DNA from: Saprospiraceae bacterium
GTDB taxonomy: Bacteria > Bacteroidota > Bacteroidia > Chitinophagales > Saprospiraceae
Length of the DNA: 64,000 nucleotides
Assembly: GCA_020631235.1 (NCBI GenBank)
Contig: JAHDHQ010000001.1
Span: 113,858 to 177,857, forward strand
Direction of reading: 5' to 3'
In this document: in pieces, positions 30,867 to 64,000 of the stretch
Layout: every line of letters starts with the position of its first letter
Numbering within the stretch: the first letter of the stretch is position 1
The notes under the pieces: generated by a model
The model's database searches: none
The model's input: the letters and a program-made list of their open reading frames with translations, nothing else
Told to the model about the DNA's origin: nothing
Position numbers and translations under genes: made by a program

Positions 30867-30939
30867 GATCGCTTAGCTCAGTTGGTAGAGCAACGCCCTT
30901 TTAAGGCGTGGGTCCAGGGTTCGAGCCCCTGAGCGATCA
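30867..30939 (+). tRNA. tRNA-Lys (anticodon TTT)
   Basis: GATCGCT/AGCGATC acceptor stem, ACGCC-CTTTTAA-GGCGT anticodon arm, GGTTCGAGC T arm. Confidence 0.97.
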
Positions 30940-30945
30940 CTTAAA

Positions 30946-30981
30946 AAACTCTTGTAACTAGTTTTACAAGGGTTTTTTTTT
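30946..30981 (+). terminator. tRNA terminator
   Basis: ACTCTTGTAA-ctag-TTTTACAAGGGT plus T-tract. Confidence 0.7.
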
Positions 30982-31004
30982 GCCGGTAATTTAAGAAATA
31001 AATG

Positions 31005-31059
31005 GGGCGAGAAGTCTATCTACGATTGCTGTAAGCACATCGGGAAGCCCCTGAGCGAT
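31005..31059 (+). repeat. Direct repeat containing tRNA-Lys 3' end, copy A
   Basis: gggcgagaagtctatctacgattgctgtaagcacatcgggaagcccctgagcgat, identical to 31128-31182. Confidence 0.9.
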
Positions 31060-31127
31060 CACTTCTGAAGCTCTTGCAAAATACTTTGTAAGGGCTTTTT
31101 TTATATGAGTAGTTTAAAGAAATAAAA

Positions 31128-31182
31128 GGGCGAGAAGTCTATCTACGATTGCTGTAAGCACATCGGGAAGCCCCTGAGCGAT
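31128..31182 (+). repeat. Direct repeat containing tRNA-Lys 3' end, copy B
   Basis: Same 55-bp sequence as 31005-31059, 123 bp downstream. Confidence 0.9.
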
Positions 31183-31215: not shown

Positions 31216-31367
31216 CTCAGCTACAAGCTGAGATAAAGCTAAACTTCATGGTTGATTTAAATGCCTTATCTATGCTAGTAGAGGCTTGTAGCCTCGATTA
31301 AAATTGGCTAACCACCTGCCAATTTTTACATCTTTAGCCTTTTACTAATGCTCAGCTTTAAGCTGAG
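31216..31367. repeat. Composite palindromic repeat, unit 1
   Basis: CTCAGCTACAAGCTGAG (31216), GAGGCTTGTAGCCTC (31281-31295), CTCAGCTTTAAGCTGAG (31351-31367). Confidence 0.9.
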
Positions 31368-31384
31368 ACGAGCACATCTTGAAG

Positions 31385-31530
31385 CTCAGCTACAAGCTGA
31401 GCTAAACTTCATGGTTGATTTAAATGCCTTATCTATGCTAGCAGAGGCTTGTAGCCTCGATTAAAATTGACTACCCACCTGCCATTTTTTACATCTTTAG
31501 CCTTTTATTAATTCTCAGCTTTAAGCTGAG
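31385..31530. repeat. Composite palindromic repeat, unit 2
   Basis: Palindromes at 31385-31401, 31444-31458, 31514-31530; same linkers as unit 1. Confidence 0.9.
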
Positions 31531-31539
31531 ATGAACGAA

Positions 31540-31682
31540 GAGCTAAAAGCTAAGCTAAACTTCATGGTTGATTTAAATGCCTTATCTATGCTAGTAGAGG
31601 CTTGAAGCCTCGATTAAAATTGACTACAGACCTACCATTTTTACATTTTTAGTCATTTATTAATTCTCAGCTTTAAGCTGAG
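31540..31682. repeat. Composite palindromic repeat, unit 3 (degenerate first hairpin)
   Basis: agctaaaagctaagct; GAGGCTTGAAGCCTC 31597-31611; CTCAGCTTTAAGCTGAG 31666-31682. Confidence 0.85.
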
Positions 31683-31742
31683 ACTAGCACATTGGGAAGC
31701 CCTTGAGCATTTTATTATTAAGGCTTTTTTATTAATAATTAT

Positions 31743-31839
31743 CTCAGCTGCAAGCTGAGATAAACTCGATTAAAATTGACTACCCACCTGCCATTTTTTA
31801 CATTTTTAGCCTTCTATTAATTATTAGCTTTAAGCTGAG
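31743..31839. repeat. Composite palindromic repeat, unit 4 (internally deleted)
   Basis: CTCAGCTGCAAGCTGAG 31743-31759 joined directly to the ctcgattaaaattgac linker; middle hairpin missing. Confidence 0.8.
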
Positions 31840-31847
31840 ATGAACGA

Positions 31848-31992
31848 AGAGCTACAAGCTGAGCTAAACTTCATGGTTGATTTAAATGCCTTATCTATGC
31901 TAGTAGAGGCTTGTAGCCTCGATTAAAATTGGCTAAGCACCTGCCAATTTTTACATCTTTAGCCTTTTATTAATTCTCAGCTTTAAGCTGAG
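31848..31992. repeat. Composite palindromic repeat, unit 5
   Basis: gagctacaagctgagc; GAGGCTTGTAGCCTC 31906-31920; CTCAGCTTTAAGCTGAG 31976-31992. Confidence 0.9.
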
Positions 31993-49897: not shown

Positions 49898-50064
49898 TTT
49901 TACAATCTAGTTAGGTACTATGATCATCTCAAAATGAAATATGAGTAGGTCTTAGACGATAAAGGTATGGAATGTTTTACATATATAAAAATGTTTAATG
50001 TGTTATTTTTATAGATGCATATTCTGAGAGTAAAGGTTTGCAGCGTAGTGTGGTCTTGCAAGCT

Positions 50065-50081
50065 CGAAGCTTTTAGCTTCG
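50065..50081. repeat. Palindrome CGAAGCTTTTAGCTTCG
   Basis: Perfect 7-bp arms; start of palindrome field. Confidence 0.7.
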
Positions 50082-50109
50082 AATTATCCATTTCTTTTGA
50101 TTTTTGAAG

Positions 50110-50190
50110 CTCAGCTACAAGCTGAGGCGAACGACGCAGAGACGAACGGAATTTTTTTTTCTATATTCGTTTGTAGAGGCTTGCAGCCTC
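50110..50190. repeat. REPIN-like pair
   Basis: CTCAGCTACAAGCTGAG (50110-50126) and GTAG-overlapping GAGGCTTGCAGCCTC (50176-50190). Confidence 0.85.
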
Positions 50191-50233
50191 GACTTATTGT
50201 GATCTTGTAAGCTAATCGTGGTGTATTTTAATG

Positions 50234-50316
50234 CTCAGCTGCAAAGTGAGACAAACGACAACGGAACGAACGGAATTCCATTCTTTCTTTATTAGTTTAT
50301 AGAGGCTTGTAGCCTC
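50234..50316. repeat. REPIN-like pair
   Basis: ctcagctgcaaagtgag (50234-50250) and GAGGCTTGTAGCCTC (50302-50316). Confidence 0.85.
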
Positions 50317-50359
50317 GGTGTATTCTGGTCTTATTAACTAATCATGGTGTATCTTAATG

Positions 50360-50464
50360 CTCAGCTACAAGCTGAGACAAACGGAGCTACAAGCTGAGAC
50401 AAACGACGCAGAGACGAACGGAATTCCTTTTTTTCTTTATTCGTTTGTAGAGGCTTGCAGCCTC
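50360..50464. repeat. REPIN-like pair with duplicated first hairpin
   Basis: CTCAGCTACAAGCTGAG 50360-50376, gagctacaagctgag next, GAGGCTTGCAGCCTC 50450-50464. Confidence 0.85.
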
Positions 50465-50549
50465 GACGTATTGTGATCTTGTAAACTAATCGTGCTTGCT
50501 TTACTTGTCAGTTGTAAGCTGAGACAATCGGCAATACTAGATACTTTAT

Positions 50550-51128
50550 TTAATGAAAAATATAACCAATATTTAAGCTTAGATCAATTACTTCTATGTC
50601 TATTTCACCTTTTCCATTTAGGTAATTTGAAGCACTTGAAAAACGAAAATGTTCTGGGGAGTTAACATAACCTGCTTTTACAGGATTTTGATGGATATAA
50701 TTTAGTCTGATGTTGATCCATTTCGGTGAAATTAATTCTGTAGGTTTATTATGCCTTTGCCAAAATTGGTATTTACTATTGTTACCATTGAGTGATCCAT
50801 ATTGTTTAAATAATTTGATCATCCATTTTCTTCGACTTTCTTGCTTATTATTAGCTATATCCTTGATTATATTCTTACTGGTGTAGCTTTTGAAATCTCG
50901 AATGATGTCTGACAGGCCTTGTGCACCTTTTGCGTAGGCTATTAAATGGATATGATTGCTCATGATGACATAAGCGTTAATAACTAATCCTTTGTGTTTA
51001 ACGCAATACCGAAAGCTATCCAATACCATTTCACAGTATTTCTTTCTTGTGAATACATCTATCCAGCCAACTATCGTGAAAGTAACGAAGTGTAGACCTT
51101 CTTGATTGATTATTTTATGTCCTTTCAA
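50550..51128 (-). CDS. REP-associated tyrosine transposase (RAYT), Y1/IS200-like HUH family
   Basis: HFVTFTIVGWIDVFTRKKYCEMVLDSFRYC, NAYVIMSNHIHLIAY (HxH), YQFWQRHNKPTEL, YIHQNPVKAGYV; no paired transposase ORF. Confidence 0.9.
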   Translation of the reverse strand: MKGHKIINQEGLHFVTFTIVGWIDVFTRKKYCEMVLDSFRYCVKHKGLVINAYVIMSNHIHLIAYAKGAQGLSDIIRDFKSYTSKNIIKDIANNKQESRRKWMIKLFKQYGSLNGNNSKYQFWQRHNKPTELISPKWINIRLNYIHQNPVKAGYVNSPEHFRFSSASNYLNGKGEIDIEVIDLSLNIGYIFH

Positions 51129-51296
51129 TGATTAAGGGCTTAGTTAAGTTAATAGGGTTTGCTTTTATTTTAATTGTCCTGATCTGATTAGAGGTAAACA
51201 TTGATCGTAAAGTTTTATACTATTAAAGGCACAGTCTCTGTTTATGTGGTACAATGTTTATTGTCCTGTTGAATGCAAATTATGGGCATGTAAGTT

Positions 51297-51313
51297 CTCA
51301 GCTGCAAGCTGAG
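51297..51313. repeat. REP-like palindrome CTCAGCTGCAAGCTGAG
   Basis: Perfect arms, followed by gcaaacg. Confidence 0.85.
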
Positions 51314-51499
51314 GCAAACGTGGCTTAATATACTTAACTCTTAGCTACAAGCTGAGACGAACAAGCCACCTAAAGGACTAGCTCCTGCTAATGCACCAAA
51401 GTTCAATCCATAACCCAATAAACCGTCAACATTATCGAGTTCTAAGCTGCAAGATGAGGCGAACGGAGTTATATTCCCAATTTTTACCATTCGTTTGTA

Positions 51500-51574
51500 G
51501 AGGCTTGCAGCCTCGGCGTTTTGTGGTCTCATAAACTAGTCATGGTGTGTCTTAATTCTCAGCTACAAGCTGAG
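51500..51574. repeat. REPIN-like pair (reverse order)
   Basis: GAGGCTTGCAGCCTC 51500-51514 and CTCAGCTACAAGCTGAG 51558-51574. Confidence 0.85.
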
Positions 51575-51834
51575 ACCAACGGAGGTTGGCTAACTTCCTT
51601 AATACAACAGTAGGAGACATTCACACAACGCTTCGTGTTTAGTTGCAAGACTTCGGACAACGTGTTTTCTATATTGTAACTACATGGTGTATGTTGACGA
51701 GGCCATTCAAGGTTACTATAAACATACTCTTTTAATCCTTTTTCAAATACAGGAAGCTGATCAACATCAGTAGCACATATATCTCTGTTGTCGGCAGGTA
51801 CGAACGTGACGAGAAGAACAAGTTGTCCTATCAA
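51559..51834 (-). pseudogene. Remnant ORF, possible TonB-C-like fragment
   Basis: LPVFEKGLKEYVYSNLEWPRQ resembles a TonB C-terminal start; terminates in a palindromic repeat. Confidence 0.3.
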
Positions 51835-52190
51835 TTGTAAAAAGACTAGAATTGTCTTCTATAATATCATTAGGACGCGCAGTGATTTCACTTTCCATAA
51901 TTCCCAAATCACCACCAAGATTTTCAATTGAAGTTCCATCTTTTCGATTATCAATTGAGTATGAAGTTGACCCGTCTGCACTTTTATTTTTATGGATTTT
52001 ATTGCTTCGAAAAAATCCAGTTTTAATTCCTTCGTTTTTCGCATGCTTTTTTGCATCGGCGTATCTAGCTCTTGAATCTTTCAATTACCATTTCTAAATA
52101 AGTCCGATTCGGACTAACTAATGGAGCATAATCTGTAGATCCTGGTATTTCAATTTCCAAAAGATAATCAGCCTTGTCTCTCAACGCTGA
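51767..52190 (-). pseudogene. Degraded polymorphic-toxin C-terminal remnants
   Basis: DSRARYADAKKHAKNEGIKTGFFRSNKIHKNKSADGSTSYSID... overlapping another frame ending RDKADYLLEIEIPGSTDYAPLVSPNRTYLEMVIERFKS*. Confidence 0.4.
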
Positions 52191-52397
52191 GACCAGCGGA
52201 GGTTCCTTCCATCGACAAACCAAATGAATAATAATGGTTAGATGATAACATTAAATCGCCTGATTGCTGGGTCGGAATAACGGAAGCAATAATCAGATTA
52301 ACTCTGAGCTGAAAGCTGAGACGAACGGGGCTAAGGCGAACGGAGCTACAAGCTGAGTAAAACGGATACTTTTAAGTCTTATGATTGCCAAATAATT

Positions 52398-52414
52398 CTC
52401 AGCTACAAGCTGAG
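52398..52414. repeat. REP-like palindrome CTCAGCTACAAGCTGAG
   Basis: Followed by gcgaacg. Confidence 0.85.
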
Positions 52415-52570
52415 GCGAACGAAATCTGTTAGGGAGATGTGCTTGCTTTTATATTTATTGTCTGGATTAGAAGAGAGGTAAACCTGGTTTATGTGGACTT
52501 TTCTATTGTTAAGTTCTTATAGGCTTGCAGCCCATAATTCTCAGCTACAACCTGAGATGAACGGGGTTTA

Positions 52571-53290
52571 TTATTTAGAATGTACATAAAATTTTGCATC
52601 AAAGTAATCAACTCCTCCAAAAATAGAATCATTAACCTCTTCAATAATCCCTGTCAATTTATTCCACCCTGTATCCAAAGCTGGGAATATAAAATTAACT
52701 TTATTACTTTTTACAAACTGAGAGTAATCAGACATTTCATCACCATTAACATCTATTGCGACACCTAGTTCTAGTTCGTCAGGCCCATATTCAGATACTA
52801 ATAACGATAAACTAAACCTTACTGAGTCACCCCAATATATTGATTTTTCGTTCAATATTTGAACATCCAAAGGAAATCTAAAATCTGCTTTAGTATACTC
52901 ATCATTTAATGCTTTTTTGTAATGATAAATTGTATCCCTATCATGAGTATAAAAATCATATGACCAACGCTTTCCATTTTCATAATTCAATATCCACTTT
53001 CCAACTTTTTCTCCGTCTAATTCAACACCCTTTTCCATTAAATTTCCATTTCTGTAGTATCTCCTAAAAAAACTTGTATCGCCTTTCAGTTCTTGGTAAA
53101 CTAAAGTATCAGAGAATTCTGATAAACAAACGATTTTCATTGGTTTATCTCCTTTATAATATGCTTTACAGTTTCTTAGAGTATCACTTTTATATTGGTT
53201 GGTAAAAACAAAAGAACTATTGACTATCCGACTTTCTTCCATGCAAGAAAACAATGTTAAAACGAAAATAAAAGGAATGTATTTTTTCAT
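52571..53290 (-). CDS. Lipoprotein with MORN/YwqK-like motif; putative immunity protein
   Basis: MKKYIPFIFVLTLFSC lipobox; YYRNGNLMEKGVELDGEKVGKWILNYENGKRWSYDFY; 3' of an orphan toxin tail. Confidence 0.65.
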   Translation of the reverse strand: MKKYIPFIFVLTLFSCMEESRIVNSSFVFTNQYKSDTLRNCKAYYKGDKPMKIVCLSEFSDTLVYQELKGDTSFFRRYYRNGNLMEKGVELDGEKVGKWILNYENGKRWSYDFYTHDRDTIYHYKKALNDEYTKADFRFPLDVQILNEKSIYWGDSVRFSLSLLVSEYGPDELELGVAIDVNGDEMSDYSQFVKSNKVNFIFPALDTGWNKLTGIIEEVNDSIFGGVDYFDAKFYVHSK

Positions 53291-53301
53291 ATTTACCACT
53301 T

Positions 53302-53700
53302 TTATTCAGGCACCGTTGAAACTGGTTTTGTTGAATGAATAACATTTCCTTTTCGATCAGTTGTATAATTCATTGTATCTAATGAACGAATAAATGTAGC
53401 AGAATCACCATTTGGTGAAGAATACTGTTGTGTATTCATTCCTGGTATTTGTCCATTACCCTCCCATCGGCTATTATCAGCCCCGAAAAACTTGGCTATT
53501 GTACTAGCAGCTGTACCTTTTAATGAGGCTCCATCAAGTGGGAATTCAATTTGTTCAATATTTTTAACATCTCTTTGCATATTAACATTTTCATTAAATT
53601 GGGAGTTTTTTCCTGTATAATAAAATCCTGCACCACCTCTATTTCCATCATCGCTATTAGTTATTGATAATTCAGCAGAAACGGTCGATTTGATCTCCTG
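53302..53700 (-). pseudogene. Orphan RHS/polymorphic toxin C-terminal tail
   Basis: Toxin-tail-like sequence without RHS core, fused to a primase fragment at 5' end, stop 3 bp before the immunity-like ORF. Confidence 0.45.
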
Positions 53701-53881
53701 ACCCTGCATTACAGTTTGATGAGAAGCATGTCCAGGTATTTGTCTTTGGGTAGATCTGTAGGCTTGGGGTTTTGTCATTGTGCCAAGGACAACAAAGGCG
53801 GTGGTTTCTATCTGGGGTGAAGTTGTAATGGGAAAGAACAGAAGTAAGTGAAAGTTGGGCTTTGACCTCTTGGATTTCCAT
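53672..53881 (-). pseudogene. Truncated DnaG-like CHC2 zinc-finger primase fragment
   Basis: LTSVLSHYNFTPDRNHRLCCPWHNDKTPSLQIYPKTNTWTCFSSNCNAGSGDQID, then abrupt stop. Confidence 0.75.
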
Positions 53882-54000
53882 AGAACTAAATTTTAACAAA
53901 AATTTCTTACTATAAGCATACTTGCTCACAAATATAGCAAACTTAGTTTCATAAAAACAAGCACTTTGTACTATTAATAGACTCAGATGCTTACATAAGC

Positions 54001-54031
54001 TTGTAAATACTATGCATCATAGCTATCTTTG
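54001..54031 (+). promoter_or_regulatory. Promoter with embedded palindromic operator for XRE gene
   Basis: TTG (54001), N20, TATCTTTG (54024-54031); CTATG-CAT-CATAG palindrome (54010-54022) in between. Confidence 0.55.
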
Positions 54032-54063
54032 TATAAGCATTCATAGCATAAATAATTAGTTAT

Positions 54064-54411
54064 ATGGCTTTCAAAGACAGATTAAAGCAAGAAAGAACAG
54101 GAAAGGGATTATCTCAAAGCAAGCTTGCTGACATCGTTGGTGTACATGTCACAAATATCTCTCGGTATGAAAGGGGTGAAAATAAGCCAACCACTGAAGT
54201 GCTTTCTAAACTTGCTAATGCTTTGTCTGTTTCAGCTGACTTTCTTATGAGTGGTACAATAGAAGAAAATGCTACCAAGTCTATTTCTGATAAAGAACTG
54301 CTCGAACAGTTTAAAAAAGTAGAGCAGCTCCCCAATCAAAAGAAGCTACTCGTTAAAGAATTTCTTGATGCCTTTATTATGAAAGCGGAACTGCAATCGA
54401 AGTTTGTGTAA
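54064..54411 (+). CDS. XRE-family transcriptional regulator
   Basis: FKDRLKQERTGKGLSQSKLADIVGVHVTNISRYERGENKPTTEVLSKLANALSVSADFLM. Confidence 0.9.
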   Translation: MAFKDRLKQERTGKGLSQSKLADIVGVHVTNISRYERGENKPTTEVLSKLANALSVSADFLMSGTIEENATKSISDKELLEQFKKVEQLPNQKKLLVKEFLDAFIMKAELQSKFV

Positions 54412-54485
54412 TAAAACCTTTGTATTTTTACAAGAGCTTCTGTATCTGTTATAACAGTTGTAGACGGGATATCTTTCTCAAAAAA

Positions 54486-54908
54486 TCATCTTCTGGAATA
54501 GGTTTTAAGAACTAAATAGCAAAAAATTATGAGTTTAAAACCTATTCCTAGGTAAGAAATTGTCCCAAGGAACTTCAAAATTGTCAACCTAGACAGTTGA
54601 TCGTCAGCAGCAATCAATTGATTTGAATACCTAAGATAATATAACAAAGCTAGAAGAATCATTGCAAAGAAAATAAGAATCCAAAATATAGTTCTATGGA
54701 ACTCTTCTTTCAAGATAAGTTTTTCAATCGCAAAAATCAATAAACAGCCAATCACTAATAATTCAAGCCCAATAAAGAAATAAACCTCTTTTATTGTTTT
54801 TATATCAACAAAATAATCAAGAATAATTGGAGATACAACTGCAATTTTATCTAAGACAAAATAGAATAATACACCTAAAATAAACCACCTAAGATTTTGA
54901 GTTTCCAT
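54486..54908 (-). CDS. Four-TM membrane protein, putative immunity to the RHS toxin
   Basis: Four hydrophobic segments; starts 5 bp after the RHS C-terminal stop. Confidence 0.6.
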   Translation of the reverse strand: METQNLRWFILGVLFYFVLDKIAVVSPIILDYFVDIKTIKEVYFFIGLELLVIGCLLIFAIEKLILKEEFHRTIFWILIFFAMILLALLYYLRYSNQLIAADDQLSRLTILKFLGTISYLGIGFKLIIFCYLVLKTYSRR

Positions 54909-54913
54909 AATGA

Positions 54914-56341
54914 CTAAAATTTTAAAATAACTCTCTCTTTTATTAAAATATCTGGATGAAATGATTGAATAGCCTCCATATCATACTTCGGCGAATTATT
55001 TTGAAGTTGTGGATTAAACATATTCATTTTCCCTTCCTTTCTATGTCTTACTCCAATTTTTCTGCCCTGTAAACTTTGAGTGGAGAACTCACGTTGATCC
55101 ATCCCTACCATGAAATCCATTCCAGGCTGTGATTTTTCATCTTTATAGCCAGTTAAATAGCCAGAATGAAATCCTGCATCTCCGTACGCAGATCCTACGG
55201 GGAAGCCTCCGTAAGCATTTTCCTCTAAGTCATTGAGGTTAAAGCCATTTGATTCACCTATTTCATGATTCGCTTGAATGTCTGATTCTTGCCCGTCCTG
55301 TACTAGGTCCACAATGTCATTCTCAAAATTTGCCATATTATTCTCAGTGATTACAAAGACTTCATCACTGCCATCTTTTGTTTCTATCAGAGTATTTCCT
55401 TGCTCATCGACAAATTTGGTTTCTATCCCATCAATCTTCATTGCAAACATACCTGTGGGATCGATTAGGTTAATCGGATTATTATGCACATAGTGGTATG
55501 GATTCCAAGTTGGAAACTGATCAGCTAGCGGATCTATCTGTAAAAACCTTCCTATACTCGGATCATAGAACCTAGCGCCATAATCATACCACCCCAAATC
55601 TAATTGACTAATAAACTCTTTGCCATTATATAAATACTTGTTATCCTCTCCAAATTCTGGCGCCCAAGTTCCTTCCATAGACATTCCAAATGGGTAATAA
55701 TGATTAGATGACAACAACTCATCTTCTTCTGGTGCATCTTCATCTACTAAAATCGAATTATTATTATCCTTATCTGCAAAACGGACTCTTGTATTACCTA
55801 AGTGATCATTTAAGTACCATTCAAAGTATTCTCCTACTGGAGCATCATTTTCGTCTCTTTCATAGACATAGCGGCCTTCTTCATGGTAGATCGCTTCTAG
55901 CTGATTATCTTTATACTCAACGCCATTAAGATAATGATAAGTGGTGGTTTCTCCACTGTTTTCATTAATAATTGTTTTGTACTTTATACCGTCCGCATCA
56001 TAAAAGTGTTCTATCGTTCCATCATCCATTTGAATAAATGAAGGCAGGTCATTGTAGGTATATTGTATGTTGTTTATTCCTTTACCTGTATCACTGGTTA
56101 GATTTCCCGTGTTGTCGTAACCATAAGTGCTTCCTGCGGATGCATAACCTTTTTCAGGATTTGATGATTCATTTATTCCTGTTAAAAGACTTGTACCTGC
56201 ATATGAATACTTAAGCTTGTCTATAGGTCCATAGGTTGGTATATCATCATTATCTATAGACAATAGACCATTTCTTGAGAGCGATGATATGTTTCCTAGT
56301 GGATCATAGCCACCTATCATTACATTGTATGCAGGATCAGC
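54914..56341 (-). CDS. RHS core and C-terminal toxin region (downstream part of split RHS gene)
   Basis: YYPFGMSMEG...YLYNGKEFISQLDLGWYDYGARFYDPSIGRFLQIDPLADQFPTWNPYHYVHNNPINLIDPTGM, then a variable tail. Confidence 0.88.
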   Translation of the reverse strand, partial: ADPAYNVMIGGYDPLGNISSLSRNGLLSIDNDDIPTYGPIDKLKYSYAGTSLLTGINESSNPEKGYASAGSTYGYDNTGNLTSDTGKGINNIQYTYNDLPSFIQMDDGTIEHFYDADGIKYKTIINENSGETTTYHYLNGVEYKDNQLEAIYHEEGRYVYERDENDAPVGEYFEWYLNDHLGNTRVRFADKDNNNSILVDEDAPEEDELLSSNHYYPFGMSMEGTWAPEFGEDNKYLYNGKEFISQLDLGWYDYGARFYDPSIGRFLQIDPLADQFPTWNPYHYVHNNPINLIDPTGMFAMKIDGIETKFVDEQGNTLIETKDGSDEVFVITENNMANFENDIVDLVQDGQESDIQANHEIGESNGFNLNDLEENAYGGFPVGSAYGDAGFHSGYLTGYKDEKSQPGMDFMVGMDQREFSTQSLQGRKIGVRHRKEGKMNMFNPQLQNNSPKYDMEAIQSFHPDILIKERVILKF

Positions 56342-59300
56342 TCATAATTCACATTCTTCAGTTGAAAATTTACCATAGTTGGCTTTTCTTAAAAGATCTA
56401 CCGGATCGTAGGTAAATCCATAGGCCATTTGGTCTTCACCTTTTACTCTCCATTTCATCCAAGAAATATTGCCATTATATTGTGGTGGAGCTGATAATGC
56501 AGCATTACCTTTATCGTAAAATATCTCCATTCCAAATAATGGCGCTGCTGGTTGTGGACCTGAGCTTGCCTGCAATGCATTTTGTATTTCATGATACATA
56601 ATATCTGCTAATTGGGGCGGATGCTGATCATTTTCAAGACATAAAATAATTTGTTCGACGATGTAGGTCAATATTTGTTCTTCGTCATTATTATTATAAT
56701 TGATAATTACTTCGAATTGATTAGGTAAAGCATTATCTGTTCCAGCCTGCCATCCAAATAATCCCGCTGTAAACACGCGTTCTGTCCCTTGATTATTAAA
56801 TGTTTGATCTCTCGAAGTCAATTCTATGTATGTAGGTATTTGTTGGTCTATTTCTGTGCAATTAAAAGCCACCGACAATTGTGTTATGCGCTTATCATCA
56901 TCCCCATGACCAAAGTCAAATAAATCTTCACAATCATCTTCCGGTAAGATAGGTCCACATGGATCTTCGTCATAAGTGGCATCTACACTATTTATTTTAG
57001 TCAGCCATCCTCGCGGGTTGTATTGATAGTCTATTTGTTGGATACCGTTGCCAATGATCTTCTGAGTGAGATAGTCATTATTGTTATAGCTTAGTGCGTT
57101 TAGGGTAGTTGCTTGACCATTAATCTTTGCTGTAGTTGACTCGAGACGAAGTCCTTTATCATATGCAAAATCTTTAACCGATGTGGTTGTAGGGCCAAAA
57201 CCATTTACATTAGTTTTTTCTTGCAGGACATTTCCGGCATCGTCATAATTCAGCTGTACAATACTTGACAATCCATCCAAAGATGCGTTAATGGTATTTA
57301 TCGAAACTCTTCCGATATCATCGTATACAAAAGAAGAGGTAGCATATCCAGGATTATTCATCATTTTACTTTCGGCATTTTTCACTCTACCTGACACTCC
57401 ATCTTGCACAAAGGATTTAATAACCTGACTACCTGCGGATGATGTGAGAAGAAAATCATTATAAATAGGATCGTAATCGTGAATCAATTGGGTCCCATTT
57501 GGTAAATCTTCAATTGCAATTTGATCAAAATTATTATACTGGTAATTGTAAGTACCCTTGTCTGGAATTGTTTTCGAAGCTAACAAACCATCACTGTAGT
57601 AAGTATATGTGTATGGGGATCCTGAAGGAGGATTTATCTGGGTTACCTGATCTCTATCATCATATTGATAAGAAGTAGTTAAGTTTAATGCCCCGAAGCC
57701 ATTTATTTGTTTTAATTGCCTACTAAATGCATCATTTATTGTAATCGATGAATTTCCATTTTCATCAGTGGTTTTTACAGCCATTTGATTTTCAATAACT
57801 AAATAATCCATTAAGATGGATTTTGTGGAACCTGCAGGTGTTGTACTGATCATTCTATTTAATGGAGAATTTTCATAAGAACTGCTAGTTGTTCCACCGG
57901 TTAGAGGATCGTTTGTTGCAATTACTCTACCAGCAGCATCATACGATTGAGTTAATACATAGTCTGATCCATCCTGAAAATACCCAGGTATGGTTTGTTT
58001 AATCATACGGCCAAATCCATCTAAAGTTTGACTGGTGCTCAATGAAGATGTCCCATCCGAATAGCTAATGGTCGTATTAAACAGATTTTCTCCACCTGAG
58101 GCCAATCCATAGACATAATCATAGTCGCTTGTTTGTCGACCATTAAGGGCAACCATTTGGCTTAATCTACCCAGTCCATCGTATGTGTAGTTACTTGTTA
58201 TTCCTTGATGATCTGTTTGACTTGTCAGCTGTCTTAAATTATTATAACTATACGTCCAGTTTCTAGCTCCATACGATTTACTCATTACTAGACCATAGTT
58301 AGGACCAGATCCCCAAGTTAAAATTTCCGGTTGAGCTTGTGTATTTCTTTGTATTTCGTCTGGATAAGAATCTCCATTGGTATAGTTTAGTGAGACCAGT
58401 TCTTTCCATGATCCATCTATATTGGCTGAGTAATATTTTGTTGGTAATAATTGGGTATAAGAATTATTAAATTCTATTTTGGTTCCTCCACCATGCCCTC
58501 CATTCACAGTAGTTTCTAATGGGACAGAAACCATATTTTTACTAATGAGAACTGAATTTGAAAGATCATTAGCATACTTATTTTCAATAAGCTTAGTGGT
58601 TTGGGGTCCAGATATTTCTTGGGATATTAAATTGTAATAAAGGTTTGTATAGCTATTTGATGTAATTGTTTCGACAAAGCTAGAACCGTCCAATGCAAAT
58701 GTTTTTGTACTAGTATTGTCTAAGGTTACCCATTTTGAATAATGGTGATAAGGGTTATTAATCACAGGGTTTATGGATGAACAAGATGGATTAGCAGGAT
58801 TATGAGATACCGCATATCCGGTAACAATATTTAGATTGTCTCCTGAATCCTCCCTATATGAATACTCATTGGTGATTTCTTGAACGAGTTTCCCAGAATC
58901 GTTAAATATCTTTCTACTTTCTAAATGACCTCTTCCATATTCATGACTTGTAATTTGAGGTAAGGGGAATCCTGCAGCTCCACTGTCACCTTTATACGAA
59001 TAGTTATCTAATTCTAAAGAGCCATCTTTATTTGTCACTTGCACATCCTTATACATTATATGGCTTCCTTTTGTTACCATACCATTAAATAAATTTGAAG
59101 AAACTATAGTCTTCATTTTACAAGTAGGACAGCTTAAATCACAATCTTCTAAGACAGCCTGCTGGAAATTATATGAGTAGATAAGTGGCGCATTTAACCT
59201 TCCGCTTGAATGTGCATTTATATCCTTATATGAAAAAGACATTGTCCCATCATTGTCTTTAATTTCCTTAACCCTTGCTCCACCAGCTAAAAAGGGTCCG

Positions 59301-61090
59301 AAAATTGGGTTCCCATTATCGTCTAACTCATACTTTTGATATGTTAAAAAATAACTCATGCAACAATATCCCAATTCAGCCTCTAACACAACTAGATAAT
59401 TTCCTTCATTCAAAGCCAAAGTTGCAGAATTTCCATTTAGTCCTGTCAATCCAAAAGATTGAATTAAATTTCCACTACTATCGAGAATTTTTATAGTTCC
59501 TGAAAACTCACCTGGGATTTGAGGAAAATAGTTCCTCCAATCAAAAGAAATTGTTTGATCAAAATCTAATGTAAACGGGAATGTTTGAATTTCATCTTGC
59601 AATAATGGAAGACCACATAAAGTATTCACTACATCTTGGCATCCAAAACAAGCTGATTCATAATCTTCATAAGTTGAATAATTGGGTGTAAAGCCTCCTT
59701 CAGATATATAATTATAATCGTGAGGTTCGTAGGTTATTTCATAATTTAATCCTAATGGGTTTTGGACTTTATATAATAATCCGGAGATTGCACCCTCTGG
59801 GTGTGCCTCTCTATTTCCAAAATGAGGACTATTTGTGTGATTGTCTCCCTCAATTTTAGGTAATAAAGTAGCATTGGTTTCTTTTTTATTATAATATCCC
59901 CAGTGATCTTGGGCATTACTTAATCTAGAAGGCAATTTATAGATATTACTAAGTTCATGTAAATAGTTGAATTTATAAGGTGGAAGGCCAGCACTTGGAC
60001 CGCTTTCACTAATTTGCTTTAAAATCAAACGATCATTGTAAAAGTGGTCATAAGTAAATGAAAAAGTTCTGTAACTCGTTCCATTTCGAAGAATTGAAAT
60101 GTTGTTTAACTTGACTTGGCCTTCAACTCCATTATTTTTTTCGGCTTGAGAATAGCTAAATAATGCTCTTTCATTATTTGTGATAATGGATGAAATCTGA
60201 ATGTTTTCATTGGATGTAAATGAGTTTTGTGATGAGATTGGCAATATATTTTCAACAAGGCTTGTGGGTAATGAACTGCATGATGGTGCTCCCTGGCACC
60301 CCGATTGAACACTGAAAGAATAAGATCTAGAACTTATATATGTCAATTCAGGTATTTCTCGATTAGTTTTGTAGTTTATTATGGCATACTCACCATTTGG
60401 ATGATTTATCCTAGTTAAGTACCAAGCTGTTATTCCATTAGAAGTAACTGCATCATTATTTGAATTAGTGCTATATTCTATTTTTTTGAAATAATATTTA
60501 ATTCCTTTTGGATCCACAGCTTCCCAGGTATCATGCGGAAAACCAGGTATTTTATTGAATTTAATTGCCGATTTATTTAATTGAACTATCTCTCCAGCTC
60601 GGTTATAAACAAATTTTCCAGAATATCCGCCAAAATTATATGAAAAAAGATCTGGATCAAAATCTAGTTGACTCCAATCTGTAGTTGGTTGTGGTGAAAC
60701 ATTTGGATTATAATCATTATTTAACCATCCTTGATTATAATCAAAGTCGTCTTTGCTTATAATTGTTCTGCTGATGACCCCACCAGCATTTAAACTCCAT
60801 CCTAAGCCAATGTTTGAAGCCACTTGATCTACTCTAATTCCATTTGTTGCATAAGAAGCTGAAATGGGTATAGAGAAACCATTTTGTGACAGTGTATATA
60901 AAGGAATTGAAATATTAAGTGCGCCAGTAGAACGATCTACACCGACATCGCTTGAAACAGTCATCGATTTAGCACTCGGTGAGGCTGGTAATACTTCAGA
61001 AAAACTAGCAGCGCTTTCTATCTGTTCGTTTTGAGCAAATAAAGATATGGTACAGAAAAGGAGTATATATGTTATTATGTTAGTGTTCAT
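56342..61090 (-). CDS. RHS/YD-repeat protein, N-terminal part, ends at in-frame TGA
   Basis: Signal peptide MNTNIITYILLFCTISLFAQ (ATG 61090); YD repeats (SYNNLRQLTSQTDHQGITSNYTYDGLGRLSQMVALNGR). Confidence 0.9.
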   Translation of the reverse strand: MNTNIITYILLFCTISLFAQNEQIESAASFSEVLPASPSAKSMTVSSDVGVDRSTGALNISIPLYTLSQNGFSIPISASYATNGIRVDQVASNIGLGWSLNAGGVISRTIISKDDFDYNQGWLNNDYNPNVSPQPTTDWSQLDFDPDLFSYNFGGYSGKFVYNRAGEIVQLNKSAIKFNKIPGFPHDTWEAVDPKGIKYYFKKIEYSTNSNNDAVTSNGITAWYLTRINHPNGEYAIINYKTNREIPELTYISSRSYSFSVQSGCQGAPSCSSLPTSLVENILPISSQNSFTSNENIQISSIITNNERALFSYSQAEKNNGVEGQVKLNNISILRNGTSYRTFSFTYDHFYNDRLILKQISESGPSAGLPPYKFNYLHELSNIYKLPSRLSNAQDHWGYYNKKETNATLLPKIEGDNHTNSPHFGNREAHPEGAISGLLYKVQNPLGLNYEITYEPHDYNYISEGGFTPNYSTYEDYESACFGCQDVVNTLCGLPLLQDEIQTFPFTLDFDQTISFDWRNYFPQIPGEFSGTIKILDSSGNLIQSFGLTGLNGNSATLALNEGNYLVVLEAELGYCCMSYFLTYQKYELDDNGNPIFGPFLAGGARVKEIKDNDGTMSFSYKDINAHSSGRLNAPLIYSYNFQQAVLEDCDLSCPTCKMKTIVSSNLFNGMVTKGSHIMYKDVQVTNKDGSLELDNYSYKGDSGAAGFPLPQITSHEYGRGHLESRKIFNDSGKLVQEITNEYSYREDSGDNLNIVTGYAVSHNPANPSCSSINPVINNPYHHYSKWVTLDNTSTKTFALDGSSFVETITSNSYTNLYYNLISQEISGPQTTKLIENKYANDLSNSVLISKNMVSVPLETTVNGGHGGGTKIEFNNSYTQLLPTKYYSANIDGSWKELVSLNYTNGDSYPDEIQRNTQAQPEILTWGSGPNYGLVMSKSYGARNWTYSYNNLRQLTSQTDHQGITSNYTYDGLGRLSQMVALNGRQTSDYDYVYGLASGGENLFNTTISYSDGTSSLSTSQTLDGFGRMIKQTIPGYFQDGSDYVLTQSYDAAGRVIATNDPLTGGTTSSSYENSPLNRMISTTPAGSTKSILMDYLVIENQMAVKTTDENGNSSITINDAFSRQLKQINGFGALNLTTSYQYDDRDQVTQINPPSGSPYTYTYYSDGLLASKTIPDKGTYNYQYNNFDQIAIEDLPNGTQLIHDYDPIYNDFLLTSSAGSQVIKSFVQDGVSGRVKNAESKMMNNPGYATSSFVYDDIGRVSINTINASLDGLSSIVQLNYDDAGNVLQEKTNVNGFGPTTTSVKDFAYDKGLRLESTTAKINGQATTLNALSYNNNDYLTQKIIGNGIQQIDYQYNPRGWLTKINSVDATYDEDPCGPILPEDDCEDLFDFGHGDDDKRITQLSVAFNCTEIDQQIPTYIELTSRDQTFNNQGTERVFTAGLFGWQAGTDNALPNQFEVIINYNNNDEEQILTYIVEQIILCLENDQHPPQLADIMYHEIQNALQASSGPQPAAPLFGMEIFYDKGNAALSAPPQYNGNISWMKWRVKGEDQMAYGFTYDPVDLLRKANYGKFSTEECEL

Positions 61091-61125
61091 GTTGTTTGTT
61101 TTTTGGAAGTTTGAGATTCTCACTT

Positions 61126-64000
61126 TTAGAAGCAAATATTAACTTGTCCAATCATAATTATTGTCTCGATATCACAGTTGTCAGTCAAAACGACCCTTAA
61201 ACAATAGATATCGCAATCAGCTGCATCGTTAATTTGGTAGTTTGTACCACCAGTTTGAATCAGCTGCCAATTTATGTCATCGTAGGTACAATCCTCTGGC
61301 TGCACTCCTGGGTTTTCATTTTTAATTTCCCAATACCAAGTACTTTCCTCATAGCAATCCATATTTTCAAGTTCCACAATACAATTAGGTAGATTGCAAC
61401 CAGAATATGTAATAGTTGAACAAACTTCACTTTCACATGAAGAGCAGGTTGCTAATTCATTACAATTACTTATTTTATTTGGACAGTCTGAATTTCCACT
61501 TATGATCACTTTATAACTAGTATTTGGCCCATAATTTGAGTAGCAGAATTCATCGCAATTAACATCTACACTATATTCTCCTGCACCCTGATAAACATCA
61601 TCATCACCATCATTGGGATCTTGATCTTGAAACTCAATTGTACAGGTAGATGAACCACTACAATCAGAAGACCCATCTGTATATTTAAGTGCATTTATTG
61701 TAGTCCAATTATCACAATCCTCTCCTGAGACTGTTGCAATTAATTCACATGAACCATTATCACTTAGAGTTACTTCACAGTCGCAATCGGCGCAACAATT
61801 CGTAGTTATTACATTTGAAACGTCCTCATCACAGTCATCAAAGGCTAGCATGACAACTCTGTAGGACCCGTTTCCTTCCCCATTACATATTGAATAACTT
61901 ATGTTGCCAATACCTGCATCTGTGGCAATCGTTACCCAAATACCTCCATCCAAAAATTGTAATTCACTTGTTGAACCAGAACAACCACTTCCAGCGTTAC
62001 CCCAGGTAAGAGTACAAGTACTATTATTATACAACAAAACAGGAGCGCACTCGCAAATTTGACAACAAGCATTTATCTGAGTTTGGGTGACAGATCCAGT
62101 GGCATAGCAGATATCAAATGAAGATGGTGTAAGACAAGTTGTTCCTGATATACTTGTAATTTCTATTTCGACGGTATAATCACCAGCGGAAAAATTGCAT
62201 AAATCTATTGACTCATTAACTAGGTCGGGTTGAGTACTACAGAATTCATTTTCTGTCCAACTACCACTATCAATTACTGCATTATTTTGGATAACTTCGA
62301 ATGTTCCAGATAAAATTGGTCCATCGGCACAATCACATTCGCATATGATTGTAGCAAAATTTGAAACATCAAGTTCGGAGCAACTTTCAGAGGCAGTTGC
62401 TGTATTACACGAAATTAATATTTCAGGGTCACACGAAGGACAACATGTATTAAATTCTGCATTGGAAAAATTTGCACTCTCTGTAAAGGTCTGATCAATT
62501 AAACTTGAAGCATCACATCCGGCCGGGGAGTTTATATCATCAATTGTAATCATTACTGAATAATCACCTACAGCTAAAACGTTACATAGTTCAAATTCTG
62601 CAAATAGGTCTAATTCTTCAAGACAATCTCTGTTTTGTGTTTCTTCTCCTTCTGCGACTAGTCCACCTTGAAAAACTTCCCAGGAAAACTCAATTTCAAA
62701 ATCATCATCGCAGCAATCGTTACAATCCAAATCAAGGAAATCATGCCAAATCACTCCATTACATAATGCTGCTTGATCAACATTACCGCCTTGAATCCCG
62801 GTGAGTTCGGGTGTACAATCACAGTCACAATCGTTGCTCCATAAATCCTCTTCAATTGTAAACTCTCTATTAATAACGATGTTCTCAATTAGTGAAATAT
62901 CACATTCTCCTCCTTCTGCATTATTAATCAATATTTCAAATGTCAATTCATCATTTAGTTCAAAATCACAGGCATTGAAATCCCAAGAAAAATCTATAAA
63001 ATCTCCACAAACTATTGGGGCAGTATTTTCTGATTCAGATAAAATTTCATTGCCGTTCAAATAAATAATCTTTTGGTACTCAAAAGTTAATTCTTCTTCA
63101 CAACAATTACAGTCTAAAGAAATTTCATTATTTAAAGAGGCAAATGAACATTCCGCATTTAATAATCCTCCTTCATCAAGTAAATTCATTGAACCTATTG
63201 TGCCCTCTTCAACTATAAAAGACTCCTGTATGGTGCACATTTCGTCATCAGTAATTGTAACTGTATATGTCCCAGGTGATAAGTCGTTCAAGTCTTCATT
63301 TGTGTCACCATTACTCCAAATATAAGTATATGGAATAGTTCCTCCAGTCACAGACAGGTCAATTGATCCATCGTCAAAAGCATTACATGACTCGTCTACA
63401 ACCACCCCAGTTAGACTAAAGTTATTACAACACTCATTGGCAGGGCATTCTGTAGTTAAGAATGTCGTACAAATTTCTATACCATTCAAATTATCCCTAA
63501 TACAGGCTGTATAATCTAGGCATGGATCATAATCGCAAAACTCATCACTATCTGCTACATTATCGAATCCAACATCTAACCAATTAATGTCATCCTCACA
63601 TAAATCAAAACAAGCTGAAATATCTACTGCGTTTTTAATACAAAGTGTTTCACCCGTACCAATATCTAGAATAAAAATATCTAAATCATATCCATCCTGA
63701 CATGCACAATTACCTGTAATATCAGAAAATTGTATTCCATGATTATTCCCAAAACATTCCTGAGCTATGTTAAAACTCACCAGGCCAGCTTCATGTATAC
63801 ATTCATCCATTCCTATTTCAAAAGATTCATAAGCAATGCAATAGTCGCTATCAGTTATTGTAGCTGAGTAAGTTCCTTCACAAAGACCTTCAACAACCGG
63901 TGTATTCTCGCCATTGCTCCAGGTATAATTATATGGAGGAGTTCCTCCTGCTGGAAATAAACTTATAGTTCCGCTGCAGTCATTAATATTACAATCTGTA
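61126..64000 (-). CDS. Cys-rich secreted SprB-repeat protein, N-terminus beyond window
   Basis: Frame open through the window end; own translation of 63811-64000: TDCNINDCSGTISLFPAGGTPPYNYTWSNGENTPVVEGLCEGTYSATITDSDYCIAYESFEIG joined to MDECIH. Confidence 0.85.
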   Translation of the reverse strand, partial: TDCNINDCSGTISLFPAGGTPPYNYTWSNGENTPVVEGLCEGTYSATITDSDYCIAYESFEIGMDECIHEAGLVSFNIAQECFGNNHGIQFSDITGNCACQDGYDLDIFILDIGTGETLCIKNAVDISACFDLCEDDINWLDVGFDNVADSDEFCDYDPCLDYTACIRDNLNGIEICTTFLTTECPANECCNNFSLTGVVVDESCNAFDDGSIDLSVTGGTIPYTYIWSNGDTNEDLNDLSPGTYTVTITDDEMCTIQESFIVEEGTIGSMNLLDEGGLLNAECSFASLNNEISLDCNCCEEELTFEYQKIIYLNGNEILSESENTAPIVCGDFIDFSWDFNACDFELNDELTFEILINNAEGGECDISLIENIVINREFTIEEDLWSNDCDCDCTPELTGIQGGNVDQAALCNGVIWHDFLDLDCNDCCDDDFEIEFSWEVFQGGLVAEGEETQNRDCLEELDLFAEFELCNVLAVGDYSVMITIDDINSPAGCDASSLIDQTFTESANFSNAEFNTCCPSCDPEILISCNTATASESCSELDVSNFATIICECDCADGPILSGTFEVIQNNAVIDSGSWTENEFCSTQPDLVNESIDLCNFSAGDYTVEIEITSISGTTCLTPSSFDICYATGSVTQTQINACCQICECAPVLLYNNSTCTLTWGNAGSGCSGSTSELQFLDGGIWVTIATDAGIGNISYSICNGEGNGSYRVVMLAFDDCDEDVSNVITTNCCADCDCEVTLSDNGSCELIATVSGEDCDNWTTINALKYTDGSSDCSGSSTCTIEFQDQDPNDGDDDVYQGAGEYSVDVNCDEFCYSNYGPNTSYKVIISGNSDCPNKISNCNELATCSSCESEVCSTITYSGCNLPNCIVELENMDCYEESTWYWEIKNENPGVQPEDCTYDDINWQLIQTGGTNYQINDAADCDIYCLRVVLTDNCDIETIIMIGQVNICF

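Follow-up and report, generated by a model that had tools for sequence, protein, structure and literature searches.

A Bacteroidota group 5 RAYT gene among inverted pairs of short hairpins in a Saprospiraceae genome

Introduction

A putative RAYT gene surrounded by short palindromes lies in the DNA of a Saprospiraceae bacterium, in a stretch of 64,000 nucleotides analysed here as the window (C24:113858-177857 of genome G000). The locus raises the question of whether the gene and the palindromes belong together as a REPtron and, if so, by which feature the palindromes are recognised. The genome is a draft of 4.19 Mb in 43 contigs, whose contig ends may hide collapsed repeats.

Results and discussion

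An intact RAYT gene

The gene at the centre of the locus has the following features.

50550–51128, minus strand: RAYT gene, 192 aa, TTG start, HuH motif NHIH (H59/H61), W123-Q124, catalytic tyrosine Y144 in YIHQNP

The original prediction of a RAYT-like Y1 transposase at this position was borne out. The reading frame is uninterrupted from the TTG start to the stop, with ATG at the equivalent position in homologues, and the protein matches the Pfam Y1_Tnp domain and the NCBIfam model NF047646 (REP_Tyr_transpos; 96.7 bits, cut-off 80). A phmmer search of the PDB with the single sequence gave no match. A profile of 28 sequences retrieved 4ER8, the E. coli TnpA_REP with its REP hairpin, as the top match (E 1.6e-8), and the AlphaFold (AF2) model (pLDDT 91.6) has its closest PDB fold in the same entry (E 1.3e-8), followed by the ISDra2, IS200 and IS608 transposases. 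In the family alignment H59, H61, W123 and Y144, together with the surrounding NYIHQN, are invariant. The gene is the sole Y1 transposase found in the genome by a Y1_Tnp search, and RAYT-like sequences occur in 6 of 72,556 plasmids and in no phages. A one-tyrosine HuH Y1 domain, a match to a RAYT-type model, a single chromosomal copy and rarity on plasmids together identify 50550–51128 as an intact RAYT gene, established in both identity and fold.

Two kinds of hairpin in inverted pairs

The palindromes are of two main kinds, hpB, which in the orientation showing a TGY loop reads CTCAGCTTGYAGCTGAG, and hpA, which reads GAGGCTTGYAGCCTC. Both consist of a perfect stem of 6–7 bp and a 3-nt T-G-Y loop. 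With up to three mismatches, the window contains 32 matches to hpB and 17 to hpA, against 0.14 and 0.56 expected from shuffled sequence, and both kinds are concentrated at 31.2–32.0 kb and 50.1–52.6 kb, in the arrangement below.

50064–50082, plus strand: hairpin of a third type, TCGAAGCTTTTAGCTTCGA, at the left cluster edge; it obeys the group 5 loop rule given below
50110–50190: REPIN-like unit, hpB 50110–50126 (TGY-loop strand minus), linker and hpA 50176–50190 (plus)
50234–50316: REPIN-like unit, imperfect hpB 50234–50250 and hpA 50302–50316
50360–50464: hpB/hpA group, hpB 50360–50376, degenerate hpB 50382–50398 and hpA 50450–50464
50507–50523, minus strand: degenerate hpB, nearest to the 3' end of the RAYT gene
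51297–51356, minus strand: hpB pair, 51297–51313 and 51340–51356, 5' of the RAYT gene
51442–51514: REPIN-like unit, degenerate hpB 51442–51458 and hpA 51500–51514
51558–51574, minus strand: perfect hpB
52304–52556, minus strand: hpB group at 52304, 52341 (degenerate), 52398 (perfect) and 52540 (one mismatch), with a degenerate hpA at 52520
31216–31992: second cluster, tandem units of about 155 bp (153–163 bp) directly downstream of tRNA-Lys
31216, 31385 and 31743: hpB of the second cluster
31351, 31514, 31666 and 31976: variants with a TTA/TAA loop in the second cluster
31281, 31444, 31597 and 31906: hpA of the second cluster

In the TGY-loop orientation, the hpB copies have CGTTYGT on the 5' side and AATTA on the 3' side of the hairpin in common, and the hpA copies at 50 kb are preceded by CGTTTGTA. 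The TGY strand of hpB is always the minus strand in the window and that of hpA the plus strand, so each hpB-hpA unit (73–83 bp) is an inverted pair with its tags pointing inward. Inverted hairpins with shared contexts had been proposed before and are confirmed by these tags. Alternation of the two kinds had been proposed for both flanks of the gene; it holds on the left, where the order is hpB 50110, hpA 50176, hpB 50234, hpA 50302, hpB 50360/50382, hpA 50450 and hpB 50507, but not on the right, where mostly hpB and one intact hpA (51500) are found. Folding of the unit 50110–50190 gave two hairpins and an inner stem between the tags (z -4.4, equalled by no shuffle), and the remaining hpB-hpA units fold less strongly (z -1.2 to -2.3). 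Inverted hpB-hpA units with an inner linker, foldable as one, are thus present at both 31 kb and 50 kb, as is expected of REPINs.

Comparison of the two clusters revealed that linkers inside one cluster are near-identical and that those at 31 kb bear no relation to those at 50 kb. This speaks against a plain segmental duplication and agrees with the prediction of the same hairpin pair with different linkers at 31.2–32.0 kb. Since hpA is limited to these two clusters, 18 kb apart, the inverted pairs could also have arisen once and been block-copied, the linkers diverging later.

The Y1 fold is common to IS608 and ISDra2, and the locus might accordingly be read as an insertion sequence of the IS200/IS605 type, its ends forming hairpins, together with non-autonomous derivatives (palindrome-associated MITEs). 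In IS608 the LE and RE hairpins lie on one strand. The two hairpin kinds found here, in opposite orientation on both sides of the gene and in multiple copies in each flank, are unlike this arrangement. In addition, the gene has one copy, no second unit of gene plus flanks occurs, and the protein scores 31 bits against the IS200 equivalog model, far under the 55-bit cut-off. A discrete multicopy LE-gene-RE element is therefore very unlikely.

Distribution in the genome and in relatives

A search of the whole genome found 21 perfect hpB sites and none for the reversed-pattern control; allowing up to two mismatches added degenerate copies almost solely within the known clusters. hpA has eight copies, all in the two window clusters. 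Elsewhere, hpB occurs in a cluster just past the window (C24:180.28–180.87 kb), at C6:41 kb, at C6:201 kb, and at 17.8 and 19.4 kb of C29. The C6:41 kb array (L091:2429–2885) contains five direct hpB copies with a spacing of about 100 bp, one of them with an inserted base. Each of these copies is joined to TTAGACT/ATCTAAT simple repeats, and the contig of the congener G109 breaks there. All hpB/hpA clusters of the genome are intergenic, and outside the 31-kb and 50-kb clusters hpB is unpaired with hpA. With about 20–35 hpB and eight hpA copies, the genome gives no sign of a large dispersed REPIN population. From the original proposal of a REPIN-RAYT system, the RAYT with its REPs, the inverted pairs and the extragenic dispersal stand, whereas a genome-wide population of REPINs like that of Pseudomonas is not supported, the copies being few and hpB standing alone outside the window.

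Relatives were compared in 197 genomes of the family, this one included, with one genome per species. Relatives of the RAYT protein occur in 79 of the 197, the congeners G109 and G188 being without. The hpB palindrome, with any loop, has 21 sites in this genome, three in G109, none in G188 and at most one in each of the 194 other genomes, seven of which have one. The palindromes are therefore not equally abundant in relatives that lack a RAYT; equal abundance was the outcome that the original prediction had set against itself. G019, one of the seven genomes, has its single hpB site (CGTCTCAGCTTGTAGCTGAG) 62 bp past the end of a fragmentary RAYT, which is 51% identical to the window RAYT and cut by the contig end. 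Two of the G109 copies are orthologous to the two C29 copies, indicating that some members of the population are older than the split and need no present RAYT. At the C6 array, no empty site was obtained on the Lon-side flank, where the G109 contig ends, and on L149 of G109 synteny with this genome ends about 80 bp before the hpB, giving no clean empty site. Some genomes of the family carry several divergent RAYTs each.

Tandem clusters of this kind, with units of 153–163 bp at 31 kb and of about 100 bp at C6:41 kb, would also be produced if local repeats had spread by slippage or recombination, or had hitch-hiked with Rhs-type debris, the RAYT being a mere neighbour; fragments resembling the C-terminal Rhs ORF in two REP clusters point the same way. 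Against this, the same hairpins occur with unrelated linkers in six places, hairpins are associated with this RAYT class throughout the phylum (see below), and G019 has the identical hairpin beside a diverged RAYT fragment. Taken together, we regard such a chance neighbourhood as very improbable.

A hairpin signature near related RAYT genes

To characterize the hairpins beyond this genome, we compared 80 homologous RAYT loci, 68 of them with full flanks; the 80 closest homologues come from Bacteroidota nearly throughout. Recurring hairpins lie within 400 bp of the gene at 44 of the 68 loci, compared with 0.4% of matched control segments, and the loop has three nucleotides in 162 of 244 hairpins near RAYT genes versus 54 of 255 far from them. 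A rule was derived on 44 non-redundant RAYTs, each differing from the others by more than 35%. In these, the 5' arm ends in R-Y-Y at the loop, G is third from the loop in 59% of the hairpins near RAYTs (21% in controls), and T is first in the loop in 91% (controls, 47%); the second loop base is C, G or T and the third a pyrimidine. The resulting signature hairpin, an NNGNN arm with a 3-nt T[CGT][CT] loop, was found 72 times in 56.8 kb near RAYTs and eight times in 141 kb far from them, a 22-fold enrichment, and is present at 36 of the 44 loci. When the entire window is searched with the rule, 19 hairpins are picked out, and the two clusters account for 16 of these; the test is not fully independent, since the window is among the 44 loci from which the rule was derived.

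The hairpin core is shared by 78% of RAYT pairs less than 30% divergent and by about 1% of pairs more than 45% divergent. Such rapid turnover fits cognate RAYT-REP pairs; common descent explains part of this pattern and may suffice alone. A Mantel test of all RAYT distances against the hairpin core gave a weak correlation (r 0.06, p 0.08). Inverted pairing found no support as a rule of the family, with neighbouring hairpins, oriented by the loop, being opposite in 54 cases and in the same direction in 45 at the homologous loci.

Two further observations were made in this sample. A G.T pair just outside the perfect stem (A.C on the other strand) was found at 23 loci, among them L033, L059, L070 and L084, versus 2 of 54 control hairpins, many related Pedobacter being in the sample; it is a possible strand-discrimination device. 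At L012, L041, L049 and L141, hairpins of two kinds alternate regularly in extended arrays on either side of the gene, in better order than those of the window.

GTAG and the classical REP systems

The original prediction also drew attention to a GTAG abutting the palindrome and likened it to the tetranucleotide of classical REPs. GTAG does adjoin hpA, in six of eight copies genome-wide; it adjoins no copy of hpB. The likeness to classical REPs did not hold up, as among 162 hairpins near group 5 RAYTs only 4 have a GT[AG]G at their 5' foot. In the E. coli TnpA_REP, the residues E100, H101 and R104 have been named as the GTAG contacts (PMC6006769), and the profile alignment to 4ER8 places P, T and I at these positions in the window protein.

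These data bear on whether a classical GTAG-tagged REP/REPIN system, of RAYT groups 2–4, is present in this Bacteroidota genome. The GTAG beside hpA and the inverted REPIN-like pairing agree with such a system. The commoner hairpin, hpB, is preceded by CGTTYGT instead, the family hairpins and the contact residues speak against GTAG reading, and the motifs are those of subclass 2.6, described as without GT[AG]G; we give a classical system very little credence.

Comparison with the E. coli REPtron (group 2, 4ER8, with BIMEs/REPINs of Y and Z REPs) showed that a single RAYT amid inverted pairs of two REPs, the fold and the catalytic motif are the same. The present system differs in that hpB lacks a GTAG guide and the contact residues are not conserved, and in its perfect short stems without a bulge and its tens, rather than hundreds, of copies. 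The group 3 REPtrons of S. maltophilia and Marinomonas (PMC8266576) share perfect palindromes with a short loop, but keep GTAG and belong to another RAYT subclass. A CGTC at the 5' foot, present in many hpB copies, is a likeness to the CGTC-tagged REPs, which are known from Bacteroidetes and whose families have stems of 8–9 bp with A-T at the base, loops of 4–5 nt, CCA tails and no transposase gene (PMC3733652). Membership in CGTC families 1–4 was rejected, as only the tag is alike: hpB has a stem of 6–7 bp, a 3-nt loop and an AATTA tail.

A probable group 5 REPtron and its proposed mode of action

The motifs NHIH, WQ and YIHQNP of the window protein fit NH[LIV]H, WQ and YIH[QN]NP of TnpA_REP subclass 2.6, and the gene, from a member of the Bacteroidetes, is flanked by hairpins without GT[AG]G that are copied elsewhere. 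RAYT group 5 is reportedly that of Bertels et al. in 2017. According to Quentin et al. 2018 (PMC6006769), subclass 2.6, for which a table lists the motifs and which is equated with group 5 of Bertels, comprises mostly Bacteroidetes genes; the atypical structures on their flanks lack GT[AG]G, were found by manual inspection and have copies elsewhere. No tested feature of the window locus departs from this description. By motifs, taxon and flanking hairpins, the system belongs to a RAYT kind already outlined in 2018. Added here are the hairpin rule (a 3-nt T-B-Y loop and G third from it), which the main text of that article does not state, the two inverted hairpin kinds, and the RAYT/REP clusters that bound a 17-kb segment.

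We therefore consider it very probable that gene and hairpins form a REPtron of RAYT group 5 (TnpA_REP subclass 2.6), a group specific to Bacteroidota, with hpB and hpA as cognate REPs, recognition based on the loop and copying in trans; the low copy number of hpB and hpA for REPs counts against this reading. In such a REPtron, the RAYT would be a domesticated IS200-type HuH nuclease that binds hairpins of single-stranded DNA in one orientation, introducing nicks next to them and rejoining the DNA there. The two cognate REPs, inverted and with their recognised strands opposite, would together act as a REPIN-like unit. Recognition would depend on the loop and the adjacent stem, with T first in the loop and G third from it, and not on GTAG as a guide. 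As DNA is replicated, such processing may now and then deposit REP copies in trans at new positions between genes, after which repair or unequal crossing-over could amplify them into tandem clusters. Binding, cleavage, loop reading and mobilisation are inferred; no biochemistry of any group 5 RAYT was found in the literature examined. Group 3 enzymes require particular loop bases for cleavage, and in IS608 and ISDra2 the transposase makes contact with a T of the loop (PMC8266576), which makes loop reading plausible.

Group 5 REPs were formerly found by manual inspection only; with a simple hairpin rule, they can be searched for throughout Bacteroidota. The rule also names the bases to mutate, so that strand choice without GTAG becomes directly testable; a loop code, if true, would give domesticated Y1 nucleases a second means of selecting the strand they act on.

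REP clusters at the ends of a variable segment

The 50-kb cluster lies at one end of a segment that differs between this genome and G109.

50011–64000, continuing to C24:180932: segment specific to this genome, 17.06 kb in total, with the RAYT/REP cluster at its left end and the REP cluster of C24:180.28–180.87 kb at its right end

The alignment with G109 stops at window position 50010 and resumes at L093:3933 (C24:180932), with about 340 bp in G109 instead of 17.06 kb. The giant gene to the left of the RAYT cluster directly precedes the CotH gene in G109, and in the present genome the CotH gene lies beyond C24:180932. Besides the RAYT gene and the REPs, the segment contains Rhs/YD-repeat ORFs (54914–56320 and 56342–61135), a gene for a SprB-repeat protein (61126–63810) and an HTH gene (54064–54411). 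In G188 a different gene stands beside the CotH gene, so that the 17-kb change may have gone in either direction. The difference is compatible with an insertion at REPs, with a loss through REP-REP recombination, or with REPs simply being tolerated where the genome varies. The presence of RAYT/REP clusters on either end of this variable segment gives a lead on whether REPs contribute to reshaping genomes. A broader proposal, that group 5 RAYTs across Bacteroidota read a loop code (T-[CGT]-[CT] with G third) rather than GTAG and that their clusters serve as end points for the exchange of multi-kb segments, is tentative, and we regard it as conceivable but rather unlikely.

The 31-kb cluster starts where synteny with G109 ends behind tRNA-Lys and has no counterpart at the orthologous position of G109. 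At 30867–31182, perfect direct repeats of 55 bp come after the tRNA-Lys gene and take in part of its 3' end (CCCCTGAGCGAT). G109 has similar repeats behind its tRNA-Lys, and synteny ends after them, as at an island attachment site. Within or beside REP clusters, 52195–52257 and L092:1696–1773 gave translated matches to the C-terminal Rhs ORF (54914–56320), which suggests the presence of Rhs debris among the REPs.
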